NCBI GenBank assembly: GCA_016756855.1
Contig: JAESPD010000018.1
Coordinates: 1-60,447, forward strand
Length of the DNA: 60,447 nt
Reading direction: 5' to 3'
Source of the DNA: a gamma proteobacterium endosymbiont of Lamellibrachia anaximandri
Lineage (GTDB): Bacteria; Pseudomonadota; Gammaproteobacteria; Chromatiales; Chromatiaceae
Numbering within the stretch: the stretch's first letter is position 1; each line of letters opens with the position of its first letter. The notes below the pieces were generated by a model. It made no database searches and was not told the origin of the DNA. It saw nothing but the letters and a program-made list of their open reading frames with translations. A program made the translations under genes and the position numbers. Below, one piece after another: positions 19,305 to 51,070 of the stretch.

Positions 19305-19514
19305 ATGAGTGACCATGTCTACAAAAAGATCGAAGTGGTGGGTTCTTCCACCAAAAGCAGCGACGCGGCAATCCGCAATGCTATTAAACGCGCGGGGAAG
19401 TCGGTCCACAACATGAACTGGTTCGAGGTGGTCGAGACCCGTGGCCATATCCTGGACGGCAAGGTGTCTCACTGGCAGGTCACCGTGAAGATCGGATTTC
19501 GCCTGGATGACTGA
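19305..19514 (+). CDS. Dodecin flavin-binding protein
   Basis: This 69-residue protein forms hollow dodecamers that store or buffer flavins. The family pattern is clear: H-V-Y-K-K-I-E-V-V-G-S-S, D-A-A-I-R-N-A-I-K-R-A, M-N-W-F-E-V-V-E-T-R-G with the flavin-stacking Trp, and a final W-Q-V-T-V-K-I-G-F-R-L. It follows mutS by 31 nt with its own AAGGAG site. A 40-bp remnant of a second dodecin gene is at 25351-25390. Confidence 0.95.
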   Translation: MSDHVYKKIEVVGSSTKSSDAAIRNAIKRAGKSVHNMNWFEVVETRGHILDGKVSHWQVTVKIGFRLDD

Positions 19515-20487: not shown

Positions 20488-21465
20488 ATGAAAGGAATTG
20501 TATCCCAACCCAATACCCTATCTGACAGACGTGGTTTTCAACGTGGCTTCCTCAACGCCGTGGCACTTATCCTCTCCGGTCTGCTGCTGAGTGCCTGCGG
20601 CACAGGCGCATCAAAGATCAAACTGACAAATGGGCACATGGACAAACTCAGGCTCGCCTTTGTCGGACGGGAGTTTGTTTTTCGAACGGATTGGCACTCC
20701 AAAATGGTTATTTACAAAGGCAAGCCGGTTCACTGGTATGCCACCCATTACAACCAATCCCCACATGATAAGAAAGAGCAGCAGAAGCTCGGCAAGTTTC
20801 AGGCGCGTGGAGGAGACGTTGCCACCTTCACCGATGTCAGGCCGTGGACACACCATGCACTGGCGCTCTATTTCAAAAATCAGCAAGGCAATAGAGGCAT
20901 CCTCAGAATAAGCACACCCAACAAAGATTCTTGGGGTAGCGAATTCTATGAAGACATGACAAACCAAACAGCCACCGTGGACTGGGTCGAGGATCAGCTC
21001 ACTAACGCAACCATCAAGTTCCTTGACAAGACGGAAACGAGCACCGCAGAGATCCCCGCTACGCTGCCGACACCACCGACCCAGCCGGAACTGACTCCCG
21101 TTGCGCCCGTCGCACCAGCCCCGGCACAGATGGCTGAACCATCGATTTCCCGCCTCACCGTAGCCGCAACACCATCCCGTGTCAGGCACGGAGAGGTCTT
21201 GAAACTGCAACTCGACTACACCATCGACGCGGCCGACGGGCAGCCTGTGCAGGTGACCGAATCACGCAACCTGGTCTTCAACAGCAAGGCTCTGCCGGGT
21301 TATCCCAAAGAACGACAGGAAACCCGCAGCAGCGGGAAGCATGCGACCAGCTTCCGGCAGAAGATCCCGCCACAGGCAACACCAGGCACCTATACTTACA
21401 AAGGCGAGGTCTGTATCCAGACCGGTTGTACCAGCCGGCTAGTGAGGTTCACAATCGAACCCTGA
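20488..21465 (+). CDS. Lipoprotein with C-terminal Ig-like domain, unknown function
   Basis: The 325-residue protein has a signal peptide ending in the lipobox L-L-S-A-C (Cys at about residue 37), so it should be lipidated at the periplasmic face. A proline/alanine/threonine-rich linker lies at about residues 190-220. The C-terminal ~100 residues (S-R-L-T-V-A-A-T-P-S ... Y-T-Y-K-G-E-V-C-I-Q-T-G-C) resemble a beta-sandwich domain with a Cys pair. The middle region is not recognised. It is convergent with the large secreted protein at 21507-25151 (41 nt gap); a shared envelope role is only a guess. Confidence 0.65.
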   Translation: MKGIVSQPNTLSDRRGFQRGFLNAVALILSGLLLSACGTGASKIKLTNGHMDKLRLAFVGREFVFRTDWHSKMVIYKGKPVHWYATHYNQSPHDKKEQQKLGKFQARGGDVATFTDVRPWTHHALALYFKNQQGNRGILRISTPNKDSWGSEFYEDMTNQTATVDWVEDQLTNATIKFLDKTETSTAEIPATLPTPPTQPELTPVAPVAPAPAQMAEPSISRLTVAATPSRVRHGEVLKLQLDYTIDAADGQPVQVTESRNLVFNSKALPGYPKERQETRSSGKHATSFRQKIPPQATPGTYTYKGEVCIQTGCTSRLVRFTIEP

Positions 21466-21506: not shown

Positions 21507-24500
21507 TTAAAAATCGGTATGTTCGAAACATTCTCCAAACTCGTAGATACCCGGGGCCTTGCCATCGCATTGACTGCTGAAATCGCCTTCCCATTTATCG
21601 AACCCCGAAGACTTGGTCTTGGCTGCGGGCTGTGACGACTTGGTTGCCCACCCCGCATTTGCGTTGTTGCCGGGTTGCCGTCTGGGTGTCTTGGGCGCAG
21701 TATGGAGATTTTGGCGATGGCTCTGTTCGTACTTTTTCATCAAATCGCCATACTTGCGTTGGTTCTCCCGCACCTTGCGCTGGATGATGTCGTCGGAATA
21801 GGCACCCGGATTTACTGTTGTACTGGTGCTACGCGCGGCCTTGGCCTGACTGACCGCCCCCAGGACACCCATCAGGGCTCCCCTCAAGGCCTGGGCTGAA
21901 CGTCTGTTCTCTTCCCGGCGCTGTTGATAGCGCGCCCGTTCGCGGTCCCGCTCGTAGGCACTCCTCTCCCCTTCCCGACGCGCCCGCTCTATGGCCTCCT
22001 CGCGCTCCATTTGGGCGATCCGTTTGGCGTCCTCCAGCAGGGTGCGGACATCCTGATCCTGTCCCAACCGGGTCGAGGCATTCTGCATTGCCCTCTTTAG
22101 CGCATCAATGCTCTCATCGACATTGCCGCGCTCCAGATTGCTGATCGCGTTTTGGATAGCTTCCCGATAGCGTTTATCACGTTCCGCAAGCAGCTGAATG
22201 GTACCGTAGTTCTGATTCAGCCATGCATGCTCCGGGTCTGCGTCTCGGGCCTGGTTGGCCAGACGCATTGCCCGCTGGAAATCGCCATCGGCATTGGCGG
22301 CCCTGATGGCACTGACATACTGCTCCGCGGGGCTTGCCTGTTCGTATCCGCCGTCGCCCCATGCACCGTCATCTGCACCACCCTGTTGCCCACCACCGGC
22401 ATGTTTCCGGATGGCCTGTCGGATGAGTTCCTTTCGGCGTTCAGGGTCCGGCTCGGTGAGCATGATCTCGGTGATCTTGTCAGTGAGTGCCTCTTCGCCG
22501 GAGGCTGCCGTCTTTGGCGCCTCGTCACCGTAACCACTCTCGGCGCTGCCCCATCCGTCATCGGCCTCTGTCTCTTTCTGCTTATTCTGCTCGGCCAGAC
22601 GGGCCTTCTCCTCCTCTACCTTCCTCCGCTTTTCCTCCTCGGCACGGCGGGCCTGCTTCCGTTTTTTCTCCTTGTCGAGCCAGGACTCTTCCTCTTCCGC
22701 CTTTTGCCTTGCACCTTCGGACATCTGCCGGGCATAGTCTCGCATGGCATCTGGATCGGGTTGGCTACCAGCCAAGCCCCGGATCGTAGCGAGCTTTTTC
22801 GGATCGACTTCACTCAGGTTGCCATTGGCGATGGCGACGATTTTGTCCATCTCTGCCTGGTTTGCCGCGATCTCACCCAGCAGTTGCTCGACGCGCTGTT
22901 GATTCTCCGGGCTGTCTGCGTTGCCTGAAAACAGGATGCCTTCCAGCTCCGCCGTTGCCTTGCGGTTTCGCTTGTCCGCCCAGCGCGCTTTGTCGTTAAG
23001 GTGTTGCACCATGGCGTTTTTCTGTGCCGACCAGTCGGAGCGCTCGTTGAAGGTCTCCATCTCGGCTGCCATATTGGCCGCCGCCCCGATTCCGACAGCG
23101 TTTCCAACCACTTCGGCCCCGGCCTTTCCCATGGCCGGTAGGCCATCCCGCAGAAATTCCGACTTGCGTCCCTCCGCCTTGGCCTGCGCCTCCATTTCAC
23201 CCATCCGGCGGCCGATGATCTCCTTGTTGGGGTCGACCAGCATCTGCTGGCCCAGATCCTGCAAATTCGAGGTGGTCGTGTCTGTATTGGCGGCCTGCTG
23301 TTTCAACCGACCCAGTTCACTCTGTTCAGCAGCGGTCAACGACCCCGGTTTCTTCTCCAGATCACGAATCTTGTTTTCCAGCTCGATCTTCTTGATGCGC
23401 TGCCGCATCCGGGTATCTTCCACCGCCTTGCGCATCGGCTCATATCCCGAACCCTCTTTGACGATGTCCGCCATGTCCTTCCCGGTGACGGTCTGGTCGG
23501 AGCGATCCAGCACCTCACCCAGCTTTCGCGCCGTGGCTTCACCCATCTGCAGGCCAGCTTCCACGCCGGCTCCGACAGCACCTTTGATGTTTGGCTTGGA
23601 CTTGGGGAGTCGGCCATCGATGGCGGTCACCTTGGCCTTGCCTCTCTTGCCCACAACCACCACGTCAGTCGGGCCATCTGCCCAGGAGGGCCGCCTACCG
23701 GCAGAGGGGAGATCCGGATCTGGAATACCCTGCCCTCTTCTTGCGCCTATTCCGCTCGCAGGCAGATCACCGTCACTTGAAATTCCCCTCTTCGGGGCAC
23801 CGCCATCCGGACTGTCGATTCCACCCTGCTTCTTCGCGTTGGCACTCTGTTCCGCCGCGTTTAGCCGCCGCTGCAGCTCATCATCAGGAATCGCGCCCTT
23901 GACCGGCTCTCCCCGATCTTTCCAGCCGCCACTGTAGGTCTCATCAGCCGTCTTCCTGCGTTTCTCGCCACTGAGAAATCTATCGCCGACCTCGTTGCCC
24001 TCCCGCACCCGCCGCCGATTGTTATCAATGTCATCGGCAGCGTTTCTGTTCCACTCCTTTTCCGCCGGATCGGCACTGTTTGCGTTGCGATAGGACTGCT
24101 CGACGTTTTCCGTCACCTTGTCCCGGACATCCCCACGACGATTTGCCCTCTGCTCAGCTGCATCCATATACTTATTGGATCTCTTTTGCCACTCTTTCAC
24201 CTTTTGCGCCTGAACCTCCGGTGAATCGCCCAGATCAGCGATGCCTGCGGTCACCGGATCACCATATTTCTGAAAGGCCTTTGCCTGGTCGACCAGCGTA
24301 TCGGCCTGGGATTTGCCGGTTTTCGGGTCGATCTTAGCCAGCGCCCTCATCTCGGGATCGGGATGCTCTGCCAGCGAACGTCTGAACTCCCCCTGGTCTT
24401 TGACAAAGGCGCCTTTGGTCTCGTCATACCTGACCCGGTCCGACGCCTTGTCCATCTTCGACACCGACTTGCCCATGGTCTTCAGGTCACCGTCCGCGCG

Positions 24501-25151
24501 CCCGTGGTGATATTTGGATGAGTGGTCGATCCCTTCACCCCGTGCATCCCTCACCTCCCCAAGGTTGCCGGTGGCATCACGCCCGCCAGGGGTCTTGAAG
24601 GAGTCGAAATCGGTCTCCTTGGCCTTGTTCCCCGCCGCAGTCTCCTTGCGCCAGTAGACATGGTCATCCGTATGGTCGACCACCTTGCTGGGGTTGCTGG
24701 TATCGACATCATGACCGCGCCGCTTCAGCTCCTCGACCATTTTCCTGTCGATCTGATCCGTGTTGCCTGCGGTATCGACATCGGCCCGCACATCCTTGGT
24801 ATTACTTCCGGTCTGGGCGGCACCGGTCTGCTTGATCATCTCATCAACGCGTTTGTTACGCGTGTCCAGACGATTATATTTTTCCTGGAGGCGATTCCGA
24901 TCCGATCGGTAACGGTCAAAGAGTGCATCCTGATCGGCGCCGGGTTTATTGGCCTGATTTCGATAACCTTCACGCAGGGCATCCAATTCCTTTTGCTGAG
25001 CAGCACGCAACTGGTCGATGGGGATGGCGCCGTCTTGAATAGCGGTTTCAGAGTATGTCGGGGTGAGATACCCCAGGGAAAGACAGAGGACGATGCAGAT
25101 CCTTGCAAGGCTCTGCAGGTGCGGATGAAAACGTTTTTTCACACTGCCCAT
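21507..25151 (-). CDS. Large secreted, charged coiled-coil/TPR-like protein, unknown function
   Basis: The protein is 1,214 residues from the ATG at 25151, chosen because GGGAG lies six bases upstream and a signal peptide (K-K-R-F then A-R-I-C-I-V-L-C-L-S-L, ending near residue 35) starts there; the frame runs 22 codons further. Most of it is extremely charged (Lys, Glu, Asp, Arg, Gln), with long predicted coiled coils, for example E-E-K-R-R-K-V-E-E-E-K. Residues ~960-1080 look like TPR helices (A-I-R-A-A-N-A-D-G-D-F-Q-R-A-M-R-L-A). It is tail-most in the unusual cluster, 271 nt after the GTPase gene, so co-transcription is uncertain. No catalytic motif was seen. Confidence 0.75.
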   Translation of the reverse strand: MGSVKKRFHPHLQSLARICIVLCLSLGYLTPTYSETAIQDGAIPIDQLRAAQQKELDALREGYRNQANKPGADQDALFDRYRSDRNRLQEKYNRLDTRNKRVDEMIKQTGAAQTGSNTKDVRADVDTAGNTDQIDRKMVEELKRRGHDVDTSNPSKVVDHTDDHVYWRKETAAGNKAKETDFDSFKTPGGRDATGNLGEVRDARGEGIDHSSKYHHGRADGDLKTMGKSVSKMDKASDRVRYDETKGAFVKDQGEFRRSLAEHPDPEMRALAKIDPKTGKSQADTLVDQAKAFQKYGDPVTAGIADLGDSPEVQAQKVKEWQKRSNKYMDAAEQRANRRGDVRDKVTENVEQSYRNANSADPAEKEWNRNAADDIDNNRRRVREGNEVGDRFLSGEKRRKTADETYSGGWKDRGEPVKGAIPDDELQRRLNAAEQSANAKKQGGIDSPDGGAPKRGISSDGDLPASGIGARRGQGIPDPDLPSAGRRPSWADGPTDVVVVGKRGKAKVTAIDGRLPKSKPNIKGAVGAGVEAGLQMGEATARKLGEVLDRSDQTVTGKDMADIVKEGSGYEPMRKAVEDTRMRQRIKKIELENKIRDLEKKPGSLTAAEQSELGRLKQQAANTDTTTSNLQDLGQQMLVDPNKEIIGRRMGEMEAQAKAEGRKSEFLRDGLPAMGKAGAEVVGNAVGIGAAANMAAEMETFNERSDWSAQKNAMVQHLNDKARWADKRNRKATAELEGILFSGNADSPENQQRVEQLLGEIAANQAEMDKIVAIANGNLSEVDPKKLATIRGLAGSQPDPDAMRDYARQMSEGARQKAEEEESWLDKEKKRKQARRAEEEKRRKVEEEKARLAEQNKQKETEADDGWGSAESGYGDEAPKTAASGEEALTDKITEIMLTEPDPERRKELIRQAIRKHAGGGQQGGADDGAWGDGGYEQASPAEQYVSAIRAANADGDFQRAMRLANQARDADPEHAWLNQNYGTIQLLAERDKRYREAIQNAISNLERGNVDESIDALKRAMQNASTRLGQDQDVRTLLEDAKRIAQMEREEAIERARREGERSAYERDRERARYQQRREENRRSAQALRGALMGVLGAVSQAKAARSTSTTVNPGAYSDDIIQRKVRENQRKYGDLMKKYEQSHRQNLHTAPKTPRRQPGNNANAGWATKSSQPAAKTKSSGFDKWEGDFSSQCDGKAPGIYEFGECFEHTDF

Positions 25152-25350
25152 GTCCATCTCCCAATGATCAGGCATTTGGGGAAAGCCGGTATTGTTCCCC
25201 GTTTGATGGGACGCCACCAGTTGCTGATAGGGAAATCTGATCCGTCAGCATGTGTGATTATCCATCTGAATAAATTATAACCACTCTCGATGCATACTTA
25301 CTAATCGCCGGATGCTCCTAGTGCCTGTTAACACTATGCGGATACCCATT

Positions 25351-25390
25351 GCAGGTCACCGTGAAGATCGGTTTTCGCTTGGATCATTAA
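25351..25390 (+). pseudogene. Remnant of a second dodecin gene (3' end only)
   Basis: Forty bases match the end of the dodecin gene at 19475-19514 with about six differences. They still spell Q-V-T-V-K-I-G-F-R-L-D-H followed by TAA. The upstream part shows no dodecin similarity. The remnant has the same orientation as the intact gene, so the two ends form direct repeats around 19515-25350. Confidence 0.75.
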
Positions 25391-25422
25391 TAAGCGTTCT
25401 CCCGGCGATCAGGCTGACCGAT

Positions 25423-26988
25423 TTAATTTTGGCGATCTGCAGATCCGGGGCCTCTACTAAGATTGTACTCGATCCTCTCGTAGGATCGTGCGAGTGCATT
25501 TGCAGCTGAAATCGTAGCCCTGCCGGCACCCATTACGTCATTCGCCCTTTGGTACCAATACCTCTTTCGCTCAAGGCAGGCAGCAAGGAGAGTCGCGGGG
25601 TCCGCTTGCTGGTCAGCCCCCAGTCTTTCGCCTATAGACGCGCCATACTCGCCGGTTATCTGCAGCAGGTGTTGCGCTTCATCCGGGGTAATCTCCAATC
25701 CACCATCGTAATAGCTGCGTAGTATTCGTAATTCGGTGAATTCATGTTGCTGTGCTTCAAAGGCCTCGAACTTTGCCCTGATCTGCGAGACGATTCCGCG
25801 CTCCAGCCCGGAGAGTCTTCTCTCTGCAACAAAACAACTCGCAGCGGTCTTGTGCAATCCGGTACTCAGCTTGATCAAAAAAGCGCGGTTGCCAAAATGA
25901 GACATGACACAATCCGTGAGTTGGGGCAGACCACTCCGGCTGACCAACGCCTGAGACAGAGCATCCTTTTCACCAATGCCGTCAGATATTGCTGAATATG
26001 CCTCCCCTATACCAAATTGCCCCAGCCGCATCAAAAGTGATTGCCGACGCTGTGGGGAGACGTCAATGTCGTCGTATTCACGTTGAGCAAAGCGATTGAC
26101 GTTCCGGATCAGTCGTTGAAAACGCGCTTGCGGCAACCTGGCCAATTGCAGAAGCGTCCCATGTTCTTCCCTGGTAAGTGTCTTTGCACCAAACGCCAAC
26201 AGCCCGGAAACCGGAAAAATATTATAAAAAACCCCCTTGACCTCATTATGCTCTGAGCGGAGCCGGTTAATGACATTTTGTCCGCCGGCCAGCGGGTTAT
26301 CCTCTGTCGGCCAATAGGCGTCAATTCGTGTAAGCACACCGATGGTGTTTATCGGCGACGCCTCTCCTATGGATGCACCCTGAAACTCTTCAAGAATGCT
26401 TTTGTCCGACTGGCCTATGCTCTGGCTGAACAGATAGAGGATAGCGTCCGCACCTGAGGCCTCAGCCTCGGTTCGCTCAGTGAGCTTGTGTGCATCCAGA
26501 CCGAGAAAATCAAGGGTATTGCGGCTGTCATCCAGATAGGCAGACCCAAGACCAGGGGTATCGATAAGGTTGAAGTTTTTCAGCATATCGTTTGGGTAAC
26601 CGACTTCGACATACTTGATCTGTTTCAATTGTTCCATATCGAAACCCCGCCGTCGGGTCAGCGATTCCAGTTCTTCGAGGGACTTCTCCTCGGCTGGACG
26701 GTCATCCTTGTAGTGGACCAGCAGAAACGGTTCCGAAGCATATCTCAGCCAGTTGACATTGAAGGTAAGTTCCTCCGCGCCAGTGGCCACCATCTGCTCA
26801 CCGAGCAGCGCATTCATCATGGTCGATTTACCCGCCTTGATTTTCCCGACAATGGCAACCTGCATGGGCTGGTGAAGCCGCTGGTAATGAGACTGCAGTT
26901 CACAATGCAGTTCCTGTAGGGAGGGGTGGCCTTGCGTCAGGGCAAGAACTGACTCGAACAGTTCTCTGGAATTTTGCTGGATATTCAC
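25423..26988 (-). CDS. Dynamin-like GTPase, second of a pair
   Basis: This 521-residue large GTPase has G1 G-K-I-K-A-G-K-S-T-M-M-N-A-L-L, G3 D-T-P-G-L-G-S and G4 T-R-I-D, then a long helical stalk region. These features match bacterial dynamin-like proteins, which often come in pairs and remodel membranes. The start is taken as GTG at 26988, one base after the stop of the upstream GTPase; a TTG at 27021 would give 11 more residues overlapping that gene. Bacterial dynamin pairs usually form hetero-oligomers. Confidence 0.85.
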   Translation of the reverse strand: MNIQQNSRELFESVLALTQGHPSLQELHCELQSHYQRLHQPMQVAIVGKIKAGKSTMMNALLGEQMVATGAEELTFNVNWLRYASEPFLLVHYKDDRPAEEKSLEELESLTRRRGFDMEQLKQIKYVEVGYPNDMLKNFNLIDTPGLGSAYLDDSRNTLDFLGLDAHKLTERTEAEASGADAILYLFSQSIGQSDKSILEEFQGASIGEASPINTIGVLTRIDAYWPTEDNPLAGGQNVINRLRSEHNEVKGVFYNIFPVSGLLAFGAKTLTREEHGTLLQLARLPQARFQRLIRNVNRFAQREYDDIDVSPQRRQSLLMRLGQFGIGEAYSAISDGIGEKDALSQALVSRSGLPQLTDCVMSHFGNRAFLIKLSTGLHKTAASCFVAERRLSGLERGIVSQIRAKFEAFEAQQHEFTELRILRSYYDGGLEITPDEAQHLLQITGEYGASIGERLGADQQADPATLLAACLERKRYWYQRANDVMGAGRATISAANALARSYERIEYNLSRGPGSADRQN

Positions 26989-26989
26989 G

Positions 26990-29050
26990 CTATCCGTCAG
27001 CCCAGTCGCCCTTATCAGCAATTTCCGGCTTCTGATTATGCGTTGCTTGATTATCGATGCGACTCATCTCCTCTTCCCGGCCCGTATGGGTACTTTCGGC
27101 TGCGATTTTAGATAGGATGGTTCTCGTCGATTCCCGTGCTGCTGTGCTAATCCGGGTAATTCTTTGGATTTCCCGCTTGATCTTGAGCGATCTCTCCTCG
27201 CTCGCTTTCTGCGACAGCTTGCCCCCACCGGAAATCGAAGTGAGCGTGCGCTCGCATCGTTGCTTCTCCTCTCTGAGTTGATTGACGAGTTCATCCCGCA
27301 TAATGCGTTCGAGTTTTGAAGTCGCCTCGGTAAGCTTCTTTTGGCACAACCGCTGGCTGTCTTCGAGATAAGGCCTGATGATCTTTACGATTTGGACCTT
27401 TCTTGCTTTCCTGTCCTTTTCTGTGATCTGCGCCAATCCTTCCTTGGCACCAGACGCAATTCCGGCGACTCCACCCAAAGCAGCACCCGCCATAAGCCCG
27501 AGTTCGACGCCAGGGAGGAACCCTGCACCTCCAGTCACTGCGCCGAGGGCACCGCCGACCACGAGGCCTAACACGCCGCCGACAACACTGCCCGCATAGA
27601 TATTGAAAATCCCGCCACGCGCCACGGAACGGGATTTCGCGAACCAATCGGAGTCCTGCGTTCCCATTTCATCTGCAGAGATTTCTGCCTTGAGGATGCC
27701 CTCTTTATTCAGGCCAACTACCCCCATGCTCAATCCAGTGACCGATTCCATCTGTCCAAACAGGTCACTCGCCCGCTTGTTCAGCGACGCCCACAGATCC
27801 GTCATGAGGGAGTCGATGTTCAACTCAAGCAGACTCACGATCTGCTGTGGATTTCGCAGCAGGGCTTCATCATCCAGGCTAGCGTTGTTATGGCGATTTA
27901 TCCCGACGAAACCGTCTTGGAATTCCGCCAGTACCTCCATGCGTATATCCTGAAGTCCATCACTCAACATAGTCCTCCACTGGGTGTTGCTGTCCAACAT
28001 CTCCTGCAGCCGGCTCCTCGAGTCACGGTACTGCTGTTCCAGCGCTTCGAGTTTTTGTTTACTGCGTTGCTCGATTGCACTCAGTTCAACCTGTAGCGGC
28101 TCGTTCAGTCTTGCCATGGCAAGCGATAGTCTGTTCAATGCATGCAGCGTCAATGTTGCTGCCCTGTTATTGCCGATCAGTCTCCACAACTGTTCGCGGA
28201 AAATATCAAAGTTACTGTCCGCCAAATCCTCCTCATCCTGGGATTCAAGATAATCCAGTTTTGCAAAACTTGATACCGGAACAACAGCGATCTTCTCTTT
28301 GCCGTCACCCAGCATATCGGCCAGTTTGGCGCGGTTGCTTTCGACGATCTTTACATAGTCCTGAACAGAATCGATCTTTGTCACGACCTGAATAATATGG
28401 GGACAGTGGTGCGCGATGTTGGAGATAAAATTCAGCTCGGAGGTGGTTAGTGGTGCATGAGCATCGCTGACGAAAATTGCAGCATCCGCATTCGGGATAA
28501 ACGTCTGGGTCACCTCCGTATGTCGTTCATTCAGACCGCCAATTCCCGGCGTGTCCACGAACACAAGTCCGTCTTTCAGCAATTCGTTCGGACTTATGAT
28601 CGTCAACAAGCGTACATTTCTTACATTGTCCTTGTTCTTCTGTTCGGTAGAGAATGTTGCTATTTCGTCGCGGCTGATCGCCTTGGAGATTATATTCCCT
28701 GTTTCACCAGCCAACACCTCAATCACTTCGTGGGGGCCGTAACTGATGGTGGAGACCAGATTCGTGGTGATGTCAATGTCGACAGGAAACAGATTGGACT
28801 CGTCGAGCAGTGCATTGATGAACGATGATTTACCCTGCTTGAACTCACCGCATGCGACGATGTATATCTTCCCTTCTGTCAGGTGATTGGCTGCTTCTTC
28901 CAGCTCCTCGGCTATTGAATCCTGGCCTTGGGATTGCGCCAGATCGATTGCGCTGCGAATCAACAGCAGCGTGCTGTTTTTGTATTGTGAAAACACAAGC
29001 ATGGGGCGATCTCTCGTAATTTGGTTATTTTCAATCCTCAATGCAGACAA
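26990..29050 (-). CDS. Dynamin-like GTPase, first of a pair, with Gly-rich membrane segment
   Basis: This 686-residue GTPase has G1 G-E-F-K-Q-G-K-S-S-F-I-N-A-L-L, G3 D-T-P-G-I-G-G and G4 T-K-I-D. Long coiled helices flank a hydrophobic, glycine/alanine-rich stretch at about residues 485-545 (G-G-V-L-G-L-V-V-G-G-A-L-G), which looks like a membrane-inserting hairpin or glycine-zipper. It should be membrane associated. It follows the unknown 197-residue protein by 15 nt and directly precedes the second GTPase, so the set is one operon. LeoA/BDLP-type proteins are the nearest known comparison. Confidence 0.85.
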   Translation of the reverse strand: MSALRIENNQITRDRPMLVFSQYKNSTLLLIRSAIDLAQSQGQDSIAEELEEAANHLTEGKIYIVACGEFKQGKSSFINALLDESNLFPVDIDITTNLVSTISYGPHEVIEVLAGETGNIISKAISRDEIATFSTEQKNKDNVRNVRLLTIISPNELLKDGLVFVDTPGIGGLNERHTEVTQTFIPNADAAIFVSDAHAPLTTSELNFISNIAHHCPHIIQVVTKIDSVQDYVKIVESNRAKLADMLGDGKEKIAVVPVSSFAKLDYLESQDEEDLADSNFDIFREQLWRLIGNNRAATLTLHALNRLSLAMARLNEPLQVELSAIEQRSKQKLEALEQQYRDSRSRLQEMLDSNTQWRTMLSDGLQDIRMEVLAEFQDGFVGINRHNNASLDDEALLRNPQQIVSLLELNIDSLMTDLWASLNKRASDLFGQMESVTGLSMGVVGLNKEGILKAEISADEMGTQDSDWFAKSRSVARGGIFNIYAGSVVGGVLGLVVGGALGAVTGGAGFLPGVELGLMAGAALGGVAGIASGAKEGLAQITEKDRKARKVQIVKIIRPYLEDSQRLCQKKLTEATSKLERIMRDELVNQLREEKQRCERTLTSISGGGKLSQKASEERSLKIKREIQRITRISTAARESTRTILSKIAAESTHTGREEEMSRIDNQATHNQKPEIADKGDWADG

Positions 29051-29065
29051 TGTTTGCCCTAACTA

Positions 29066-29659
29066 TTAGCGCGTTTTCGACGGAAGATAGTGATTAAAAA
29101 AGTTTTTGCCGAGCGTCCTGTAGTAGGGCTCCAGTGAGGGCTCCATCAGTATATTTAGTGTTGTTGAAAATCTGTGATTCCATTCTTCAGAGAAATCAGA
29201 TCCCTGCGACAGCTTGTCGAACAACTCATTGTATAGCTCAAGCAGTTCCTTACGCTTTTCTTTGTACTCACCGACGGCAAGGGAGGCAACTGACTCGTGA
29301 GGAAAATGTCCGACAGGCTTCCCCCACTCCACATCAGGCCAAGGATTGCGAAACTGCAGGTTTACATATTCAGCTGGAACCAAGCTGGCCCAATCCAGGG
29401 TGACTAGGGCAAAAGGAGGAAACAGGGCAGTTTTTCCCTTCTCGCTCGTGGGCGAGAATCCAAAAAACGGGATTCGCATATAGACTTTTCCGTTCCTGCG
29501 CAAGGGGATCGGCCATCCTATGCCCGCTTCCGCAGGAATCAGTTGCTGAAACCAGGGGGTTTTTCTGAGTCTTTCCAGTAGCGCGGATGTCCTGCGGACC
29601 GACTGCTGTGTTGACCTGTTTGAATGAGTTTCCTGAGTCTGTTCACTTAAGTGCGACAT
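29066..29659 (-). CDS. Protein of unknown family in the Hsp70/GTPase operon
   Basis: This 197-residue protein shows no signal peptide or membrane span. The N-terminal ~40 residues are polar (Ser/Thr/Gln-rich). The middle has F-F-G-F-S-P and a proline/tryptophan-rich segment (F-R-N-P-W-P-D-V-E-W-G-K-P), and the C-terminal part is helical (Y-K-E-K-R-K-E-L-L-E-L-Y-N-E-L-F). I do not recognise it. Gaps of 15 nt downstream and 53 nt upstream place it in the operon, so it probably serves the same process as the GTPases. Confidence 0.7.
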   Translation of the reverse strand: MSHLSEQTQETHSNRSTQQSVRRTSALLERLRKTPWFQQLIPAEAGIGWPIPLRRNGKVYMRIPFFGFSPTSEKGKTALFPPFALVTLDWASLVPAEYVNLQFRNPWPDVEWGKPVGHFPHESVASLAVGEYKEKRKELLELYNELFDKLSQGSDFSEEWNHRFSTTLNILMEPSLEPYYRTLGKNFFNHYLPSKTR

Positions 29660-29712
29660 GATCGATTCTCCCTCTGAATAAGTTCATGATTGCAATTTAA
29701 ACGGTGGTCAAA

Positions 29713-30690
29713 TTAGTAATAGCCCGTGTCCCAGTTATATCTCTCTGGTGTACCATCATCGTAATACCAGGTTCCATAGCGATCATAGTAGTTGCCGATC
29801 ATCTGATCCGACACCTGGGATGCTCCACTGGATACCATGAAATGATTGCTGTCTTCCCAGGCGTCCATAAATTTATCGGCTGGAATCATGACCCCACTAC
29901 CATCTGGGGAACCGGGATCATTCAGAATTACCTTTGGGCTGCCCTGATCACTGTAATCGATACCGATAACCTGAACCGCATGGTTGGCATCCTGACCAGG
30001 CATGCCGAAATACTCGGAAAGCATGTCGTCAAGATCGGCCCCTGTGTTCCATATTTCATCAGAGTCCAACGCGACTAAAATCGATTCTCCCTGCTCAAGC
30101 TTTGCCGATAGATCATCCATGGTGCAATTAATGTCGTAGTCGACCTGGCATTCGAAATGTTCGAGTATGCGTCCCATCTCATTCATCGGCGTTCCTCCAC
30201 CGGGGGTGTACCAACCCGCATCAGTTGCAACACTGGTCAGTTCCTCTTCGGTGACATCGCGCCCAAGCACCTTATCCAGAATAAATTCCTGAGAGACCAA
30301 TGCGCAAGATGACTGGGTCGACTGCATGTGCCAGTTCTCCATGTCCTGGGCCGGATCGCCTACGATTTGCTCCAGATCGGCGTTCTCCGGATCAAAAACG
30401 GGATACTCGATAAAGAAGGACTCCGCCGTGTTTTCCGGCTGCAGTTCGCCAGAGTCAAGTGACTGGATTGAGGATAGATCAGTCTGATCCATAGGCTCAA
30501 CATCGGGCAAATACGCATCATTCTCTTCACTTGGGGAGGTAAAGATGCCATTCCACTCGACGGGAGCCTGATAGGCTGAACCGACCGATAAATCAGCTAC
30601 GGGTTCCATTGCATCGTCAGCAATTGGGCCCCAGAGGTCATCTTCGAATTCGTCAAACTGATCGAATAGCTCATTCATCATCCTCTCCAT
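29713..30690 (-). CDS. Papain-like (C39-type) cysteine protease-like protein, intact catalytic residues
   Basis: This 325-residue protein has an acidic, disordered N-terminal ~110 residues. The papain-like domain follows, with Gln123 (oxyanion), Cys129 in Q-S-T-Q-S-S-C-A, His237 in N-H-A-V-Q-V-I-G and Asn257/Asp258 in V-I-L-N-D-P-G, the arrangement of C39_2-like peptidases. The C-terminus is rich in Tyr/Trp (Y-Y-D-R-Y-G-T-W-Y-Y-D-D). No signal peptide, so it acts in the cytoplasm or is exported otherwise. Its paralogue lies directly upstream. A peptidase role is inferred from motif layout; substrates are unknown. Confidence 0.75.
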   Translation of the reverse strand: MERMMNELFDQFDEFEDDLWGPIADDAMEPVADLSVGSAYQAPVEWNGIFTSPSEENDAYLPDVEPMDQTDLSSIQSLDSGELQPENTAESFFIEYPVFDPENADLEQIVGDPAQDMENWHMQSTQSSCALVSQEFILDKVLGRDVTEEELTSVATDAGWYTPGGGTPMNEMGRILEHFECQVDYDINCTMDDLSAKLEQGESILVALDSDEIWNTGADLDDMLSEYFGMPGQDANHAVQVIGIDYSDQGSPKVILNDPGSPDGSGVMIPADKFMDAWEDSNHFMVSSGASQVSDQMIGNYYDRYGTWYYDDGTPERYNWDTGYY

Positions 30691-30770
30691 ACCAGAATAT
30701 TGGTCTGTACCTTGCGCATATCCACCCGATCATTCCACGCAACTGTTTACTCGTGAATCTGTCTGGCTCG

Positions 30771-31751
30771 TTAATAGTTGTAATAATGACCCCATTTGAA
30801 GTCTTCCTCCCAAGTACCATCGTCATACTGCCAATATCCCCATTTGTTGTAGCCGCCCGCCAACAGGGGTGAGGATTCTGCACCTGCACCTGCACCTGCA
30901 CCTGCACCTGTCGCCGATACCATGTAACCACCGCTCTCGTTCCACGCGTCAATAAAAGCTTCCGCTGAAATCATGATGCCAGAACCATTTTGCAAACCCG
31001 GATCGTTTAGTATGACAACCGGGTTCTGCGCATCGGCCCGGTCGATGCCGATGACCTGAACCGCACCCAAGGCTTGCTGGCCGGGAATCCCTTGATAGTC
31101 GCCCAGATTGTCATCATCGGCGGACGGGGCCCACAATTTGGTTGTACTCACGGCCGCGATAACCGTTCGTCCTTCCGCCAACTGTTGGGCCAAGTCATCG
31201 AGGGTGGCGGATTGGTCGTATTCGACCTCCAAGCCGCCGAATTCGAGTAGATTGCCGATACTGGCAATCGGGGTCCCGGCTCCAACAACCTGCCATCCCG
31301 CATCAGTCGCCATGGCGCTGAGCTGTTCGTCCGATATTCCCTCAGCAAGTTGCTCGGACAGAATGAAATTCTGACAGGTCGTCGCACCGAATCCTGGCTC
31401 GGGTTGCATTCGCCAGTACTGCAGATAAGCCCATGGATCACCGATGACATCTTCAGGCTGAACGCTGGCGGTGATTAATGATTTCGCATCGAACAATTCA
31501 GTGGCCCAGTATCCTTCTCCGTAAGTAATACTCTCTGTCGGGAAGTTCGCATCCAGGGTGTTAATAGGTTCCCCAATGGTTTCGGCAGCCATGACCCGAC
31601 TAAACTCAGATGCGTCACCGTCTGGAATATCGGGAACAGCAAACTCGTTACCTTCGATCCCGCTATATTCACTCTCCATCTGTTCAGAAATTTCATGGGT
31701 GTCCTCGAAATCATCATCGAGCGATTCAAGATAGTCATCGAAATCGATCAT
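30771..31751 (-). CDS. Papain-like pseudo-protease, paralogue lacking Cys and His
   Basis: This 326-residue protein aligns along its whole length with its downstream neighbour. It shares the acidic N-terminus, the M-Q-x-x-P/Q anchor, T-D-A-G-W, A-V-Q-V-I-G-I-D, V-I-L-N-D-P-G and the aromatic tail (Y-W-Q-Y-D-D-G-T-W). The catalytic Cys is Gly122 and the catalytic His is Gly229, so proteolysis is not expected. A nearby Cys126 sits four residues late, where the paralogue has Ser. A run of Gly-Ala repeats follows V-S-A-T. It may bind the same target as the active copy or hold it inactive. Confidence 0.75.
   Translation of the reverse strand: MIDFDDYLESLDDDFEDTHEISEQMESEYSGIEGNEFAVPDIPDGDASEFSRVMAAETIGEPINTLDANFPTESITYGEGYWATELFDAKSLITASVQPEDVIGDPWAYLQYWRMQPEPGFGATTCQNFILSEQLAEGISDEQLSAMATDAGWQVVGAGTPIASIGNLLEFGGLEVEYDQSATLDDLAQQLAEGRTVIAAVSTTKLWAPSADDDNLGDYQGIPGQQALGAVQVIGIDRADAQNPVVILNDPGLQNGSGIMISAEAFIDAWNESGGYMVSATGAGAGAGAGAESSPLLAGGYNKWGYWQYDDGTWEEDFKWGHYYNY
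30878..30910 (-). repeat. In-frame hexanucleotide repeat, 5.5 copies
   Basis: CTGCAC is repeated head to tail five and a half times inside the pseudo-protease gene, encoding an alternating Gly-Ala run. Each unit is two codons, so slippage would change length without a frameshift. Confidence 0.9.
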
Positions 31752-31810
31752 ACTTCAGTCCCATGTCGGTCGTGGGATTACCCATGGTGTGCCCGGCGTC
31801 TTCGGCACAG

Positions 31811-34800
31811 TCAGAGTCCCAGTTCGTGGAGTCTTCGCAGCATCCAGCTTTCATCACTGAACCAGCCTACCGTCGTGATCTCTCCGTCTTCAGAGAACCA
31901 CGCTTGTTGAGACAGCGGGCGGTGTCCGGCTTGTATCCATGCCTCGTTCAAGTTGCGCAGCAACTGATAGGGAACACCGCGCATCTTTCTCTTTTTGTCG
32001 ATGCATTGATGGCCGGTTATCTCACGGACCAACCGGAACGTCTCGCGTTTTGCGCCCTTGACATTGCGACCGCTCTTGGCCAACAGTTCGCGTAGTTTTT
32101 GATATGGGTCATGCGACCAAACGATGCTTACATCGCTTTGCGGTTCGATCTCCCAGGATCCGTCCGTGTTTTTTTCAATGGTGCAGTCCTCAAGTGTTGT
32201 ACGCCCCTGTGCCGACACGAAAACGCCAACACCGAGGTTTTCATGTATCTTGCAGACGCGTATCAGTGGCCGCGCTCTTTCAGTAATTTGAATTCCGCTA
32301 ACTGAGTTCTCTTTGATGACGCAACGCTCAATCATTCCCTGGGCCTGATTATCGAAGATGATCCCGACATCGTTATCGCGTAAGGTGCAGTTTCGGATTA
32401 CAGGGCTGGCCCGACCTGAAATATATAGTCCGCACCGGAGATCGAAGAGCTCACACTCCGAAATCGAACACTTCGCAGTGGTTTTTATCAGGAACCCACG
32501 TTCGGCGTTTCCGTGCAGTTTACAGCCCCTGACCGAGGGACTGGCACCATCGGTGATCTCCATGCAGGAGATATCCCAAAAAGCCCCGTCATCCGCCTTC
32601 GAGATATCGCAATTCTCGAATGTTCCCAAGCCCTTGTCAGATACGATAATTTCAGAGGTTATAGCGTCATGGATTTTACATCCACTGAACAATGGATCGC
32701 CATTACGCTTGATCTCGACCCCGGATTTTCCATTGGCAAATACGTTGCATTCAATGAACTGCCCCCTGCCACTATCGATAACAGATATCCCGGTCACTTC
32801 CCCGCCACGGATTGTGCATCGCCGCACAACAGGTGACGCGCCTGTTTTGCTTATGACATTGGCATTGGTGTTGGAATGGATCTCACATTGGTCCAGTGAG
32901 CCAACTGCATCGGCATCGAAAATCACACCGGAATCTTTTCCATCGTAAATCCTGCAGTGGATAAATCTTGGGTCACTACCTCCGGTAACTGATGCACCCG
33001 GCCCTGTGTTGGAAAAAATATCGCAGTTTTTGAAGATACCTTTTCCAGCACCGACCGTAAGCACACCCTCTTTCGTACCATCATGAATTCTGCATGAGCG
33101 GATTTCAGGGTTTCCCCCCGGCCCAATCACCAAGCCGGCCTCCTGATTATCGTGGATATCACACCCTTCTACGATGCAGCCATCACTGGACTGGATCCAC
33201 ATACCGGATTGCTTTCCAAAATGGATATTGCTGTGGGAGATGGTGGGAGCGCTCGCTGCATCGACGGAAACGCCTGGTTTTTCAGTTCCGCGTATATCGC
33301 AATACTCAACCGATCCCATTCCATTGTCACTGAAACGGATACCGTTACTCTTTCCTCCGCGGACATTGCAATGGTCGATCTTGGGAGCGGCACCGGTAGA
33401 AACAGAGATTCCAGGACCTGCATTTTCAATGATTTTGCAATGCTCGAGCGTTCCAGCAGCGCCTTCGGAAATCGCAATCCCTGCCTCCTTTCCATGATGG
33501 ATCCGACACTTGCAGATCAGCGGATCGGTTTGTGCGCCGCTAATCAGGATGCACGGGCCGTCTTGAGATGTCACCCGGCATTCGACCATTGTGGGTTTTC
33601 CTTGTGAGATCGACACGGCGCAATGCGCATCGTGGGATCTGCTCTCCGATTTCTCGCGCTTTCGCGAGGACTCAGCACGGCGCAGGGTAAGCCCTCTCAG
33701 AGTTGCACGCTCTGTCTGCATCGAAACACAGGGGCCAGTCTCCGATTCAACAATGATCTGATCGACCGCACCCGCACCGGTAATTTCCACCGGTTTATCG
33801 ATGATCAGGGTTTCCCTATAGATCCCGGGTTCCACCTGGATACGGGTTTCAGGCTTAACCGTTTGAATCGCCTCGGAGATGCTCGAGAAGAGTCCCCAGC
33901 CACCGTTCGCTGAGACGACTGGATTATCGTCTCGCCGCTCCAGTTCAGCAGCATAGATCGCCGCACCACGTGATATGGCCAGTTCCGGGTCGTCCACCCG
34001 TTCAACCCGGCACTGAAACTCGTTTTCCAGTAACTCCTTGATATAGGGTATCCGGCTGCACCCTCCGACCAGCAACAGGTAGTCTACCGACTCCCAGCCA
34101 ATTCCTGCCATCTCGACAAGCTTATGGCAGAGCTGGGCCGTCTCCTTTGCCAAACTAGCGACCATCTCGTTAAAGGTGTCCCTGTCGAGACTGAATGGCT
34201 CCATAGCTGTGGCACCGGGAACAGGGATAGATACGAACGCCTCCTGAGCTTCACTCAGTTGATGCTTGAGCCCCCTGCACCATTCAGTAACCATGGCCCG
34301 CAGGCGCATCGCATCTTCATCCCGCTGTTCGAGCAGAGTGCGCAACTCCTGACTGCAATTTCGCTTGAGATGTTCGAAAATCATGCGGTCGAGGTCTATC
34401 CCTCCACACTGTTCCAGACCGACAGGAAGGGCAAGCAGTTCATAGCCGAATTCGGTCTTGCGTACCAGAGCCGCGTCGAAGGTACCTCCGCCAAGATCGT
34501 AGACCAGCACGACCTCTCCGCCGGAGGGCCGCTGTTCTGCGCCCGCTTTCCAAGTGTGGTAGATGGCTGTTGCCACCGGCTCATCCAACAGAGCCACCTC
34601 AAGCCCAGCCATCATTCCGGCGCGCGCCATCAGTCCGCGTTTGTAATCGGCGTAGATCGCTGGAACCGTCAAAACCGCTGAGGTGATAGCGGCCCCACCG
34701 TTCATCTGCTCCGCTTCAGTTTTGAGCTTTTTCAGAACCTCTGCGATCAGTTCCTCCGGCTGCATTGCCCGTTCGCCGAGCTGGAATGGCTCCTGTTGAC

Positions 34801-35017
34801 CCAGATCGCGCTTGAAACCGCTTCGGTAGCGAGACAAGGCTTGCAAACGCTGGTTTTCGGCTGCTTGTCCAACCAGGACTTCGCCCTGCTGGGTTATATA
34901 GAGACTCGATGGGAATGAAAAAGTATGGGAGAGGGGTTCCTTGACCAATACAAGGTCATCCCGCAACAGAAACGCGGAACTGGAATAACAAGTACCGAAA
35001 TCAATACCCAGGCGCAT
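31811..35017 (-). CDS. Hsp70 ATPase domain fused to a long right-handed beta-helix
   Basis: In this 1,068-residue protein, residues 1 to about 360 form an Hsp70/actin-fold ATPase, with phosphate-1 loop G-I-D-F-G-T-C-Y-S-S, phosphate-2 V-Y-D-L-G-G-G-T-F-D-A-A and adenosine motif L-L-L-V-G-G-C-S-R-I-P. The DnaK substrate-binding domain is missing. From about 375 to 960 there are some two dozen ~23-residue rungs of the parallel beta-helix type (x-I-x-x-C-x-I-x-x-x-x-x-x-G-I/V-x-V), rich in Cys and Gly. A C-terminal ~90-residue domain with H-D-P-Y-Q-K-L follows. It is first in the operon. The helix may act as a scaffold or ligand-binding arm driven by ATP. Confidence 0.88.
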   Translation of the reverse strand: MRLGIDFGTCYSSSAFLLRDDLVLVKEPLSHTFSFPSSLYITQQGEVLVGQAAENQRLQALSRYRSGFKRDLGQQEPFQLGERAMQPEELIAEVLKKLKTEAEQMNGGAAITSAVLTVPAIYADYKRGLMARAGMMAGLEVALLDEPVATAIYHTWKAGAEQRPSGGEVVLVYDLGGGTFDAALVRKTEFGYELLALPVGLEQCGGIDLDRMIFEHLKRNCSQELRTLLEQRDEDAMRLRAMVTEWCRGLKHQLSEAQEAFVSIPVPGATAMEPFSLDRDTFNEMVASLAKETAQLCHKLVEMAGIGWESVDYLLLVGGCSRIPYIKELLENEFQCRVERVDDPELAISRGAAIYAAELERRDDNPVVSANGGWGLFSSISEAIQTVKPETRIQVEPGIYRETLIIDKPVEITGAGAVDQIIVESETGPCVSMQTERATLRGLTLRRAESSRKREKSESRSHDAHCAVSISQGKPTMVECRVTSQDGPCILISGAQTDPLICKCRIHHGKEAGIAISEGAAGTLEHCKIIENAGPGISVSTGAAPKIDHCNVRGGKSNGIRFSDNGMGSVEYCDIRGTEKPGVSVDAASAPTISHSNIHFGKQSGMWIQSSDGCIVEGCDIHDNQEAGLVIGPGGNPEIRSCRIHDGTKEGVLTVGAGKGIFKNCDIFSNTGPGASVTGGSDPRFIHCRIYDGKDSGVIFDADAVGSLDQCEIHSNTNANVISKTGASPVVRRCTIRGGEVTGISVIDSGRGQFIECNVFANGKSGVEIKRNGDPLFSGCKIHDAITSEIIVSDKGLGTFENCDISKADDGAFWDISCMEITDGASPSVRGCKLHGNAERGFLIKTTAKCSISECELFDLRCGLYISGRASPVIRNCTLRDNDVGIIFDNQAQGMIERCVIKENSVSGIQITERARPLIRVCKIHENLGVGVFVSAQGRTTLEDCTIEKNTDGSWEIEPQSDVSIVWSHDPYQKLRELLAKSGRNVKGAKRETFRLVREITGHQCIDKKRKMRGVPYQLLRNLNEAWIQAGHRPLSQQAWFSEDGEITTVGWFSDESWMLRRLHELGL

Positions 35018-35304
35018 GGCCTTGATCCATCTTCAACGAGGTTACAGCTTGATCACAGATAGGCAATGTAAGGCTTAGGGAAACGCCGCATCGCCAGACA
35101 TCAATTATGCGTTGTGATCCTCCTCTCTAATACAGTATAGCGCCAAACAATCGGAATACCTGGAGGGCACGCGTCGCACTGGGGGATAGGCATTGGTTTT
35201 CGCAAACGCACACAAGGGGTCGATATCAATCCATGCAATAGCGGATAGTTAAACAACACTTGGCGGACCGGATTGGCTCCGTTCCCGGAATTCAAACGCA
35301 GCTT

Positions 35305-45943: not shown

Positions 45944-47092
45944 TCAAGAAAGTGAATGCCAACGGGCAATCTCATTTTTCACCAGGTCATCAGGAACAAA
46001 CTCCTGCTCCAGCCGGCCTTTCTCTGATCGGCAGAGTCTGAGATATAGCGCCTTCTCCTGTTCGGTGAGTTTGGAGGGGATGGACTCTCCTGCCGTTACG
46101 GGTTCGGCAACAGCCTTCTCTTTGTTACAGTGTTCAAAGGTCTCCTCATCCATCAATACCGGCGTCAGGGCTGGCTGGTATGAACGGGCTGAGGCGAGCA
46201 TGGACAGGCCCCAGGTGTCGATATCTCCCCAATAGGCGATATTTTTGTTGCCGATCCAGTCGGCTTGCATCCAGCTTAGATTAAGCCCCGCCCCGAGTAT
46301 GGCAATGGTGTCGGGCAGTGACGGCAGTTGATAGAGGGAACGTTCGTTCTCGACAATCAGCAGATGAGTGCCAGGAAGTGGTGTCTGCGTCAGCTCGCTG
46401 CTTCTCACTCTGAGTTGCCTGAAGGGGAGAAGTCCCGCCTCCAATGGAACGACTAATAGCCAGTGCTCGCTCTCATCGAGCGCCCTGAGGAAAAACTCAA
46501 GACCCCGATCTATAACCTGCTGGCCGAATCGCAACTCAAGCAGCTTGCCCACCAGGGTGCGATTGCGCTCGAAAAACTTGCTGTCGCAACCAGCGACAGA
46601 GAGCGCCCGCAAGGGTTTGCCTTCGGCGCATCCTGATTCAAGTTGCAGCGCTACCTCACAGGCCTTGATGGTCTCTTCAACACCTCTGGACAACAGCTGT
46701 TGCCGCTGGCGAATCAGAAGGGGGTGAAACAGCGGGTCGACGTCAGCCAAGATTGTGGTTACCAACAGGTATTCCTGCCGGATCGTCGTATCGGCCATCG
46801 CCTCTATCCACTCGTCAGCCGATTGCAATACCCAGTTCAGTGGGAGTTGAACCGCTTCTGCAGTGCTACGGTAGTTGACGGGCTGCCAGTCGATCTCCCC
46901 TGCTGTTACTTTTCGCCAGAGATTGATGTGTTTTCTGACGGCAGAGATTTCATTGTTGATTTGTGCAGGAGAGGGCTTTCCGATAGGCAGCGTCAAAGGC
47001 CAGGCGCTATGATCCAACAGCCGTTGTTCGCGCAACTTGCCGTTTTGCCATTGACGTCTGAGTTTGTGGCGTAGATCTTCAGGCGTTTTCAT
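45944..47092 (-). CDS. jetD: Wadjet nuclease subunit JetD
   Basis: This 382-residue protein is of the DUF3322/DUF2220 type. The C-terminal half has the TOPRIM-like acidic segment Y-W-G-D-I-D-T-W-G-L with an upstream G-A-G-L-N, placing the cleavage site there. JetD cuts circular DNA that the JetABC loop-extrusion motor has reeled in. The start ATG overlaps the jetC end by 14 nt; the long upstream frame to 47374 is a shadow of jetC. It is last in the jetABCD operon. Confidence 0.93.
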   Translation of the reverse strand: MKTPEDLRHKLRRQWQNGKLREQRLLDHSAWPLTLPIGKPSPAQINNEISAVRKHINLWRKVTAGEIDWQPVNYRSTAEAVQLPLNWVLQSADEWIEAMADTTIRQEYLLVTTILADVDPLFHPLLIRQRQQLLSRGVEETIKACEVALQLESGCAEGKPLRALSVAGCDSKFFERNRTLVGKLLELRFGQQVIDRGLEFFLRALDESEHWLLVVPLEAGLLPFRQLRVRSSELTQTPLPGTHLLIVENERSLYQLPSLPDTIAILGAGLNLSWMQADWIGNKNIAYWGDIDTWGLSMLASARSYQPALTPVLMDEETFEHCNKEKAVAEPVTAGESIPSKLTEQEKALYLRLCRSEKGRLEQEFVPDDLVKNEIARWHSLS

Positions 47093-50408: not shown

Positions 50409-51070
50409 TCCTCGGACTCCTGCTGCGCTTTGATCTGTAGTTTAAAGGCCGTCAGCAGGTTCTGCAGGTTTTCCGGGTTGGCGATATGCACAATCAGCGG
50501 CCGGATGGTGAGTTGATCGTTTTTATCCACTTCCGAAACCAGGCCGTGGCCCCGTAACTGCTCCAGTAACTGGCGCAGCCGTTTGTCATTGCGGCTGTCG
50601 CTGCCGGTCTCGCCGAGAAACTGGTTCAACTCCGGCATCAGTTCATCGAGATGAGCCAGCGCCGTTTTTGTCCCAATACCTGATTCCATCTCATGGGCGA
50701 TATAGATCCGGCGCAGGATCGCCACCAGCAACGACTGCTCCAGATTGAGCCGTTGACGGCGCACCAACGGGTGGCTCCACTCATCCTTTTCGCTATCTGC
50801 GTAGTTTTCAACGATAGCGAGGTATGCGATGCCGCGGATGTCATCGATCTTCAGCGCCAGATCCAATGGTTCAAGGATGGTGTTGACCGCTTGAAAAGAG
50901 GTCAGCGCAGTACGATAGAGATTGGGTTTGTGCTCTGCTTCCAAAACACCATATTTGAGCAGCTCCTGCACGACACTTTTTAACGATTGCGGAGTGACCT
51001 TCTGCAAGTCAGTGGAAATTGTTTCACCGTTTGTCCCTTCGTCCATGGGAGTCTGTTGTTCTTCACTCAT
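50405..51070 (-). CDS. jetB: Wadjet MukE-like subunit JetB
   Basis: This 222-residue DUF4194 protein is the kite (MukE-like) partner that bridges JetA and JetC. It is built of winged-helix elements, including S-L-K-S-V-V-Q-E-L-L-K-Y-G-V-L and R-Q-L-L-E-Q-L-R-G-H-G-L-V-S. The start is ATG at 51070, overlapping the jetA stop (TGATG); a GTG directly before it is also possible. The overlaps on both sides indicate tight stoichiometric coupling. Confidence 0.94.
   Translation of the reverse strand: MSEEQQTPMDEGTNGETISTDLQKVTPQSLKSVVQELLKYGVLEAEHKPNLYRTALTSFQAVNTILEPLDLALKIDDIRGIAYLAIVENYADSEKDEWSHPLVRRQRLNLEQSLLVAILRRIYIAHEMESGIGTKTALAHLDELMPELNQFLGETGSDSRNDKRLRQLLEQLRGHGLVSEVDKNDQLTIRPLIVHIANPENLQNLLTAFKLQIKAQQESEE

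Follow-up and report, generated by a model that had tools for sequence, protein, structure and literature searches.

The window, as we call the whole stretch of DNA analysed (60,447 nucleotides of contig JAESPD010000018.1, from a gamma proteobacterium endosymbiont of Lamellibrachia anaximandri), carries six genes of the same (minus) strand, A to F, arranged as an operon between positions 25423 and 35017 (Table 1). The genes are separated by tight gaps, and F overlaps the 3' end of E by 32 nt. Scans of the operon for sigma-70 promoters and terminators gave fewer matches than were obtained in shuffles. The initial annotation had regarded the six genes as a linked unit, and this was borne out by the tight spacing and the overlap, by the clean empty sites found in two congeners (G001 and G002), and by the low dN/dS values of the operon genes in the comparison with a third (G004). 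It is thus very probable that A to F form a genuine module.

Table 1. Genes of the operon and the segment absent from two congeners
Feature	Position	Strand	Description	Basis
gene A	31811..35017	-	1068 aa; Hsp70 nucleotide-binding domain + right-handed beta-helix	Pfam, motifs
gene B	30771..31751	-	326 aa; predicted dead paralogue of C	alignment, motifs
gene C	29713..30690	-	325 aa; predicted C39-like papain-fold cysteine peptidase	alignment, structure model + fold match
gene D	29066..29659	-	197 aa; unknown protein	sequence identity to relatives, model
gene E	26990..29050	-	686 aa; predicted dynamin-like GTPase 1, IniA-like	Pfam, IniA match, motifs
gene F	25423..27021	-	532 aa; predicted dynamin-like GTPase 2	Pfam, structure-sequence match, motifs
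segment missing from G001, G002	25307..35302		alignment resumes at 35303 (G001) or 35299 (G002) after 25306	

The product of gene A starts with an Hsp70 nucleotide-binding domain (approximately residues 1 to 370; Pfam HSP70, residues 3 to 360, E 2.5e-49) in which the phosphate and adenosine motifs are present, followed by the beta-helix (approximately 376 to 985; Pfam Beta_helix, E 3.2e-75) and a short C-terminal part (985 to 1068). It lacks an Hsp70 substrate-binding domain: the match to the HSP70 profile stops at position 376 of 599, and the beta-helix comes next. The proposal that this fusion belongs to a set with its neighbours held in part, given that Hsp70 recurs elsewhere beside peptidase or dynamin genes, while scanning of 46 other loci gave no match to the beta-helix profile and the fusion was observed only in this genus. 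The C-terminal part of the Hsp70 varies by lineage: the beta-helix of the window gives way to a short tail in cyanobacteria, and to a hydrophobic segment plus a further tail behind the ATPase domain in most actinobacterial copies. With a hydropathy cut of 2.0, chosen by ourselves, 17 of the 21 Hsp70-like ORFs from actinobacteria carry such a strongly hydrophobic segment, which would resemble a membrane anchor. When the window was compared with the congener G005, the beta-helix block comprising residues ~600 to 990 showed a dS of 0.36 to 0.65 per comparison window, against 0.11 to 0.18 in the ATPase part. This divergence is compatible with a swapping of the recognition part, as judged from a single pair in which one gene is split.

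The catalytic residues of C were assigned by alignment to Cys129, His237 and Asn257, and both the predicted model and its fold match were in agreement with a papain fold with Cys-His-Asn. The N-terminal region is acidic and was modelled with low confidence, and no hydrophobic segment was found in the protein. No Pfam C39-type profile matched C above the cut-off; its relatives from Anabaena and Rhodococcus WAY2 do pass. C is 51 to 55% identical to the Anabaena copy, and two Rhodococcus copies have Ser in place of Asn257. For its part, B has Gly at both the catalytic Cys and His positions and is a predicted pseudoenzyme, in concordance with the active/inactive peptidase pair previously read in these genes. 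As part of the wider set, the active partner recurs elsewhere, whereas dead B was confined to this genus among the 19 sequences aligned (from 12 of 20 loci, five other relatives, and B and C of the window). A restraint exerted by B would therefore not be general. D accompanies C in four phyla, with identities of ~52 to 53% to Anabaena D, 41% to that of Dactylosporangium and 19% to that of Merdimonas. Its structure model had a mean pLDDT of 81, and a search with it for solved structural relatives gave no clear one.

Both E and F matched Pfam Dynamin_N and contain the G1, G3 and G4 motifs. They are predicted to be dynamin-superfamily proteins with GTPase activity and a role in membrane remodelling. 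E has a hydrophobic segment (~480 to 512), and its nearest solved structure by sequence is mycobacterial IniA (residues 37 to 628, E 2.2e-33), a protein that cuts membranes in vitro and has been proposed, in the portions of the paper available, to keep the plasma membrane intact (PMC6715688). The best match of F among solved structures was a Campylobacter DLP (5owv_C, E 3e-14). The C-terminal end of E reads DWADG in the window and GWADG in G005; cyanobacterial E ends in SWADD and that of Dactylosporangium in DWADA, and the stretches preceding this W-A-D tag look dissimilar between the lineages. None of 29 other dynamin-1-like ORFs (one of them a fragment) had a W-A-D ending, and none of the 29 lies beside D in the fetched stretch. 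Thus, the tag was found on E only where D is present, in three lineages having D and dynamins. In Anabaena, the Hsp70 terminates in WF, as do three of the four proteins that follow it (L049, 8202 to 14286). The W-A-D and WF endings may serve the C-D pair as signals for docking or cutting.

Within the set of 142 genomes, C was found in four, all of this genus, and D and E in the same four of its six genomes. The genes that flank the operon are also found in G001 and G002, where nothing of the operon lies between them. In G005, a transposase pair that looks IS3-like by eye has inserted into A where its two parts meet and interrupts the gene. G003 has lost A by deletion, apart from the first codons, which are now in frame with B; there, the reading frames of B, C, D and F remain open, and that of E is broken by a stop at codon 6 but continues open afterwards. 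The operon is an accessory unit. Synonymous divergence from G004 was 0.014 to 0.098 in the operon and 0.062 to 0.352 in seven flanking genes, and the high identity spans from ~20.5 kb to 35.9 kb, which suggests that a longer stretch was recently exchanged by recombination. Since this identity extends beyond the operon, over a 1236-aa gene downstream, homologous exchange is likelier than movement of the operon as a mobile element of its own. The latter was rejected, with no transposase or recombinase match among A to F, target-site repeats being judged by eye only. Among 299 proteobacterial genomes (the organism's own included), a search for F at E up to 1e-15 yielded only the copy of the window and one weak match; given this near absence, the operon was probably imported into the genus.

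The 1236-aa gene downstream and a DUF3549 gene upstream were considered as operon members and left out, because both are kept in G001 and G002, which are without A to F. The 1236-aa gene (21507 to 25217) has no clear family, with a weak TPR match only, and is much diverged in G005 (78% identity). Its 325-aa neighbour (20488 to 21465) has no Pfam match, and an additional, diverged copy of it is present in both G005 and G001. The two look like a fast-evolving pair. A 34-base repeat, 94% identical, lies just behind the operon (25351 to 25384) and at 19475 to 19508, these being its only two copies in the genome. It looks like the last part of a small gene following mutS, an ending that presumably resembles dodecin, and is possibly the trace of a segment insertion. 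On the other side, 11 kb from the operon, a complete Wadjet type I anti-plasmid locus with JetA, JetB, JetC and JetD is located at 45944 to 52563 (best PADLOC E, 5.1e-215, 8.5e-92, 0 and 2.4e-160, respectively).

Outside the genus, matches to C were obtained in 27 of 72,556 plasmid records (14 of Rhodococcus, 12 of Prescottella and 1 of Anabaena). F matched in 33 records, including all 27 with C, at a C-F distance of 2.8 to 9.0 kb by the listed coordinates; the six without C belong to Gordonia (four), Nocardia and Nonomuraea. A dynamin, a GTPase, an Hsp70 and a C39 peptidase were present in all three of the Rhodococcus plasmids opened, out of 14 records, while two Gordonia plasmids had the dynamin, the GTPase and the Hsp70 without C39. 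The Anabaena plasmid shows the order Hsp70, four further genes, C, D, E and F, and Dolichospermum carries the same set. In the matched parts, the Anabaena proteins are 55% (C), 53% (D), 41% (E) and 47% (F) identical to those of the window, and the Hsp70 domain is 47% identical. One of the four further genes of Anabaena encodes a DO-GTPase above the Pfam cut-off, and a second match falls below it. Thus, the co-occurrence of Hsp70, a C39-like peptidase and a dynamin pair extends far outside the genus, to cyanobacteria and Rhodococcus plasmids. The possibility, foreseen in the initial annotation, that the genes are scattered and unlinked in relatives was looked at, and linkage was instead found to recur.

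The full set is subject to departures, with Hsp70 missing at some loci, C at others, and the dynamin in Merdimonas. Dactylosporangium sucinum (Actinomycetota) has E-C-D-F, preceded by a gene matching the Rhodococcus sigma factor, and no Hsp70 was found in 39 kb. No dynamin was found on a 12-kb contig of Merdimonas (Bacillota; L055), where a HerA-like ATPase, the C39-like peptidase C, a short D, a regulator and the Hsp70 stand in a row, the regulator being probably of the LytTR type. Eight of 339 cyanobacterial genomes contain a relative of C; besides Dolichospermum, four of these loci have three dynamins each and three have none. The three-dynamin clusters (L089 to L092) read dynamin-C39-dynamin-dynamin in three cases and C39-dynamin-dynamin-dynamin in one, with no Hsp70 match in the 8.3 to 19.5 kb fetched. 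One dynamin per cluster bears a long N-terminal extension. A dynamin match was present in the fetched stretch of 11 of 14 loci with a C39 profile E of 1e-40 or better versus none of 13 weaker loci, a count that includes a fragment at a contig end (L096) and in which L049/L056, L050/L051 and L089 to L092 are kin groups and therefore not independent. The 21 actinobacterial C39 matches contributed 13 fetched loci (L096 to L108) and one already in the set, the weakest seven being dropped, and the HMMs were built from members of the system itself.

A survey of 246 actinobacterial genomes for F-like dynamins (E up to 1e-20) was positive in 13. An Hsp70-profile match lay at most 3.5 kb from the dynamin in 12 of the 13 loci opened, compared to none of 12 control windows, distances being approximate as actinobacterial ORFs run from stop to stop. 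The 13 loci correspond to L128 to L139, from 11 genomes including G486, and to the Dactylosporangium C-D locus of G486, the single one without Hsp70; the weakest two of the 13 genomes (G905 and G957) were left out. The controls (L097 to L108) surround unrelated C39 genes in five genomes of the same phylum and showed neither an Hsp70 nor a dynamin match; two of these windows cover less than 19.5 kb (11.7 and 14.0 kb). At two of the 12 positive loci, the sole Hsp70 match was weak (E 3e-15 and 2e-14). Two also carry an Hsp70 with a tail that we take to be of the housekeeping DnaK kind; there, a second Hsp70-like gene is nearer in one locus and about equally near in the other. No C39 match was found at any of L128 to L139, and the Hsp70-dynamin set therefore goes without the peptidase in most of the Actinobacteria sampled. 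As for genomes closer to the endosymbiont, G022 (same family; L142) has a pair of Hsp70-like genes immediately next to three dynamin-like ORFs, G024 (same family) has a weak Hsp70 match beside two dynamins, and G112 (same class) has three dynamin-like ORFs with no Hsp70 match nearby.

Several known systems resemble parts of the operon. Eleos LeoABC is a bacterial dynamin pair. F matched the PADLOC LeoA and LeoBC models weakly and over short parts (E 1e-10 and 8.6e-9, respectively), and A to F have the Hsp70, the peptidases and D in addition. The likeness to iniBAC resides in the IniA-like E and in two dynamin-like genes side by side, while C, D and the Hsp70 fusion are additional features of the operon; in the text available, the words "Hsp70" and "chaperone" are absent from PMC5760070 and PMC6715688, and "peptidase" from PMC5760070. 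The Campylobacter DLP1/DLP2 proteins, to which F is closest, are described in the accessible part of PMC6104087 as a heterotypic pair tethering membranes, and their operon putatively contains an HcpA-like beta-lactamase, not Hsp70 or C39. The GTPase-centric HSP70 conflict systems (Kaur et al. 2020, PMC7159879) share a GTPase, an HSP70, in some cases without the peptide-binding domain, and variable parts. According to the available text, they are built on DO-GTPase and GAP1, neither of which was recognised in A to F (no DO-GTPase match at E up to 1, and no GAP1 match with Pfam profiles); the Anabaena relative carries the DO-GTPase and the weaker second one, and that paper makes no use of the word "dynamin". 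C39-like papain-fold enzymes (3erv and the phytochelatin synthase Alr0975) are 14 to 17% identical to C, which differs from them in its operon partners, its dead twin and the absence of an ABC transporter. Within the accessible text of the open-access literature searched, including PMC8195603, PMC6104087 and PMC9950537, no description of the combination of Hsp70, peptidase and dynamin pair was found, in agreement with the initial suggestion that the system might be undescribed. The nearest published frames, as far as their available text goes, are the GTPase-HSP70 conflict systems (PMC7159879) and the ini papers. Bacterial dynamin-pair systems are already known, and this combination with Hsp70 and a peptidase is apparently undescribed.

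On the evidence of gene content and motifs, A to F may constitute a membrane-remodelling module whose dynamin pair is under the control of a cysteine peptidase and of an ATP switch of the Hsp70 type, a reading that we hold plausible with somewhat less than even confidence. The variable C-terminal part of the Hsp70 would sense a ligand or membrane or envelope damage, upon which the ATPase domain would change state and free or recruit active peptidase C. D would bind C, and dead twin B would restrain C or hold it on its substrate. C, probably with D, would recognise the W-A-D tail of E and either cut the tail or use it for docking. The last step would be the assembly of E and F on the inner membrane, which they would seal, tubulate or cut. 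Under stress, the cell could benefit through repair of its membrane; if the module acts in defence, the gain could be delayed lysis or isolation of the damage. This particular order of events is put forward with clear reservation.

A role in anti-phage or anti-plasmid defence, in which the beta-helix Hsp70 would recognise an invader product and the peptidase would activate the dynamins, resulting in lysis delay, sealing or cell death, is possible but doubtful. The accessory presence at one site in four of six congeners and the nearby Wadjet locus are in accordance with it, and, in the available text, Bacillus DynA delays phage lysis (review PMC9950537) and the GTPase-HSP70 conflict systems follow a similar logic (PMC7159879). 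The plasmid location of relatives also fits, although such copies could equally serve the plasmid, and the divergent beta-helix block of G005 (residues ~600 to 990) would agree with changing recognition but comes from one pair only, with the gene split by an IS. Defence models offered little: in PADLOC (2023), no model matched B, C or D, A matched at chance level only (E 0.04), and E and F resemble Eleos LeoA/LeoBC weakly. No relatives of C or D appeared in viral contigs searched with short patterns, weak evidence on which a viral origin of the operon was rejected as well.

It is conceivable, with comparable doubt, that the operon is instead a module for envelope-stress repair akin to ini, which damage to the cell wall or membrane would induce and in which the peptidase and Hsp70 would act as sensors or in quality control. 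IniA, the closest solved structure to E, has a proposed role in membrane maintenance (PMC6715688), and the response of iniBAC to envelope stress runs through IniR (PMC5760070), both as stated in the text available. Sigma-70 family sigma factors and MspA porins occur in the same stretch as the Rhodococcus and Gordonia plasmid copies, but neither a sigma factor nor an envelope gene lies inside A to F, and its loss in two of six congeners, together with the deletion of Hsp70 in G003, suggests that its role is dispensable. A conflict or defence role is possible and an IniA-like membrane-stress role fits equally well; stress repair and defence are indistinguishable from sequence alone.

C39 enzymes are best known for trimming leader peptides. 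By analogy, C could trim a secreted or conjugative peptide, with the dynamins and Hsp70 assisting secretion or plasmid transfer, as the C39-like fold, the plasmid setting in Rhodococcus and Gordonia, and the repetitive acidic proteins beside Rhodococcus C, possible substrates, might indicate. This is quite improbable, with no ABC transporter among the A to F products, no hydrophobic segment in C, and the operon here located on a long contig that contains core genes and is not plasmid-like. That an accessory island merely collected unrelated genes, as the accessory site and the IS and deletion in relatives might suggest, is scarcely credible and is contradicted by the recurrence in other phyla, with overlapping combinations in three further phyla, C and F together on every plasmid that matched C, and Hsp70 by the dynamin at actinobacterial loci versus none in the controls.

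Returning to the membrane-remodelling module, a beta-helix replacing the Hsp70 substrate domain and a dead/active peptidase twin are each unusual in themselves, and the set links three protein classes usually studied apart. Its recurrence makes the role and the trigger of the dynamin pair, here accompanied by an Hsp70 sensor, a peptidase and a tag, a testable question. The operon might even represent an unnamed class of Hsp70-gated dynamin systems, in which an Hsp70-fused sensor would control the peptidase with its dead twin and D, the W-A-D tag would be read, and the membrane-cutting dynamin would be switched on, a generalisation that seems rather unlikely at present. If true, proteolysis would license bacterial membrane remodelling, as it does for gasdermin pores.
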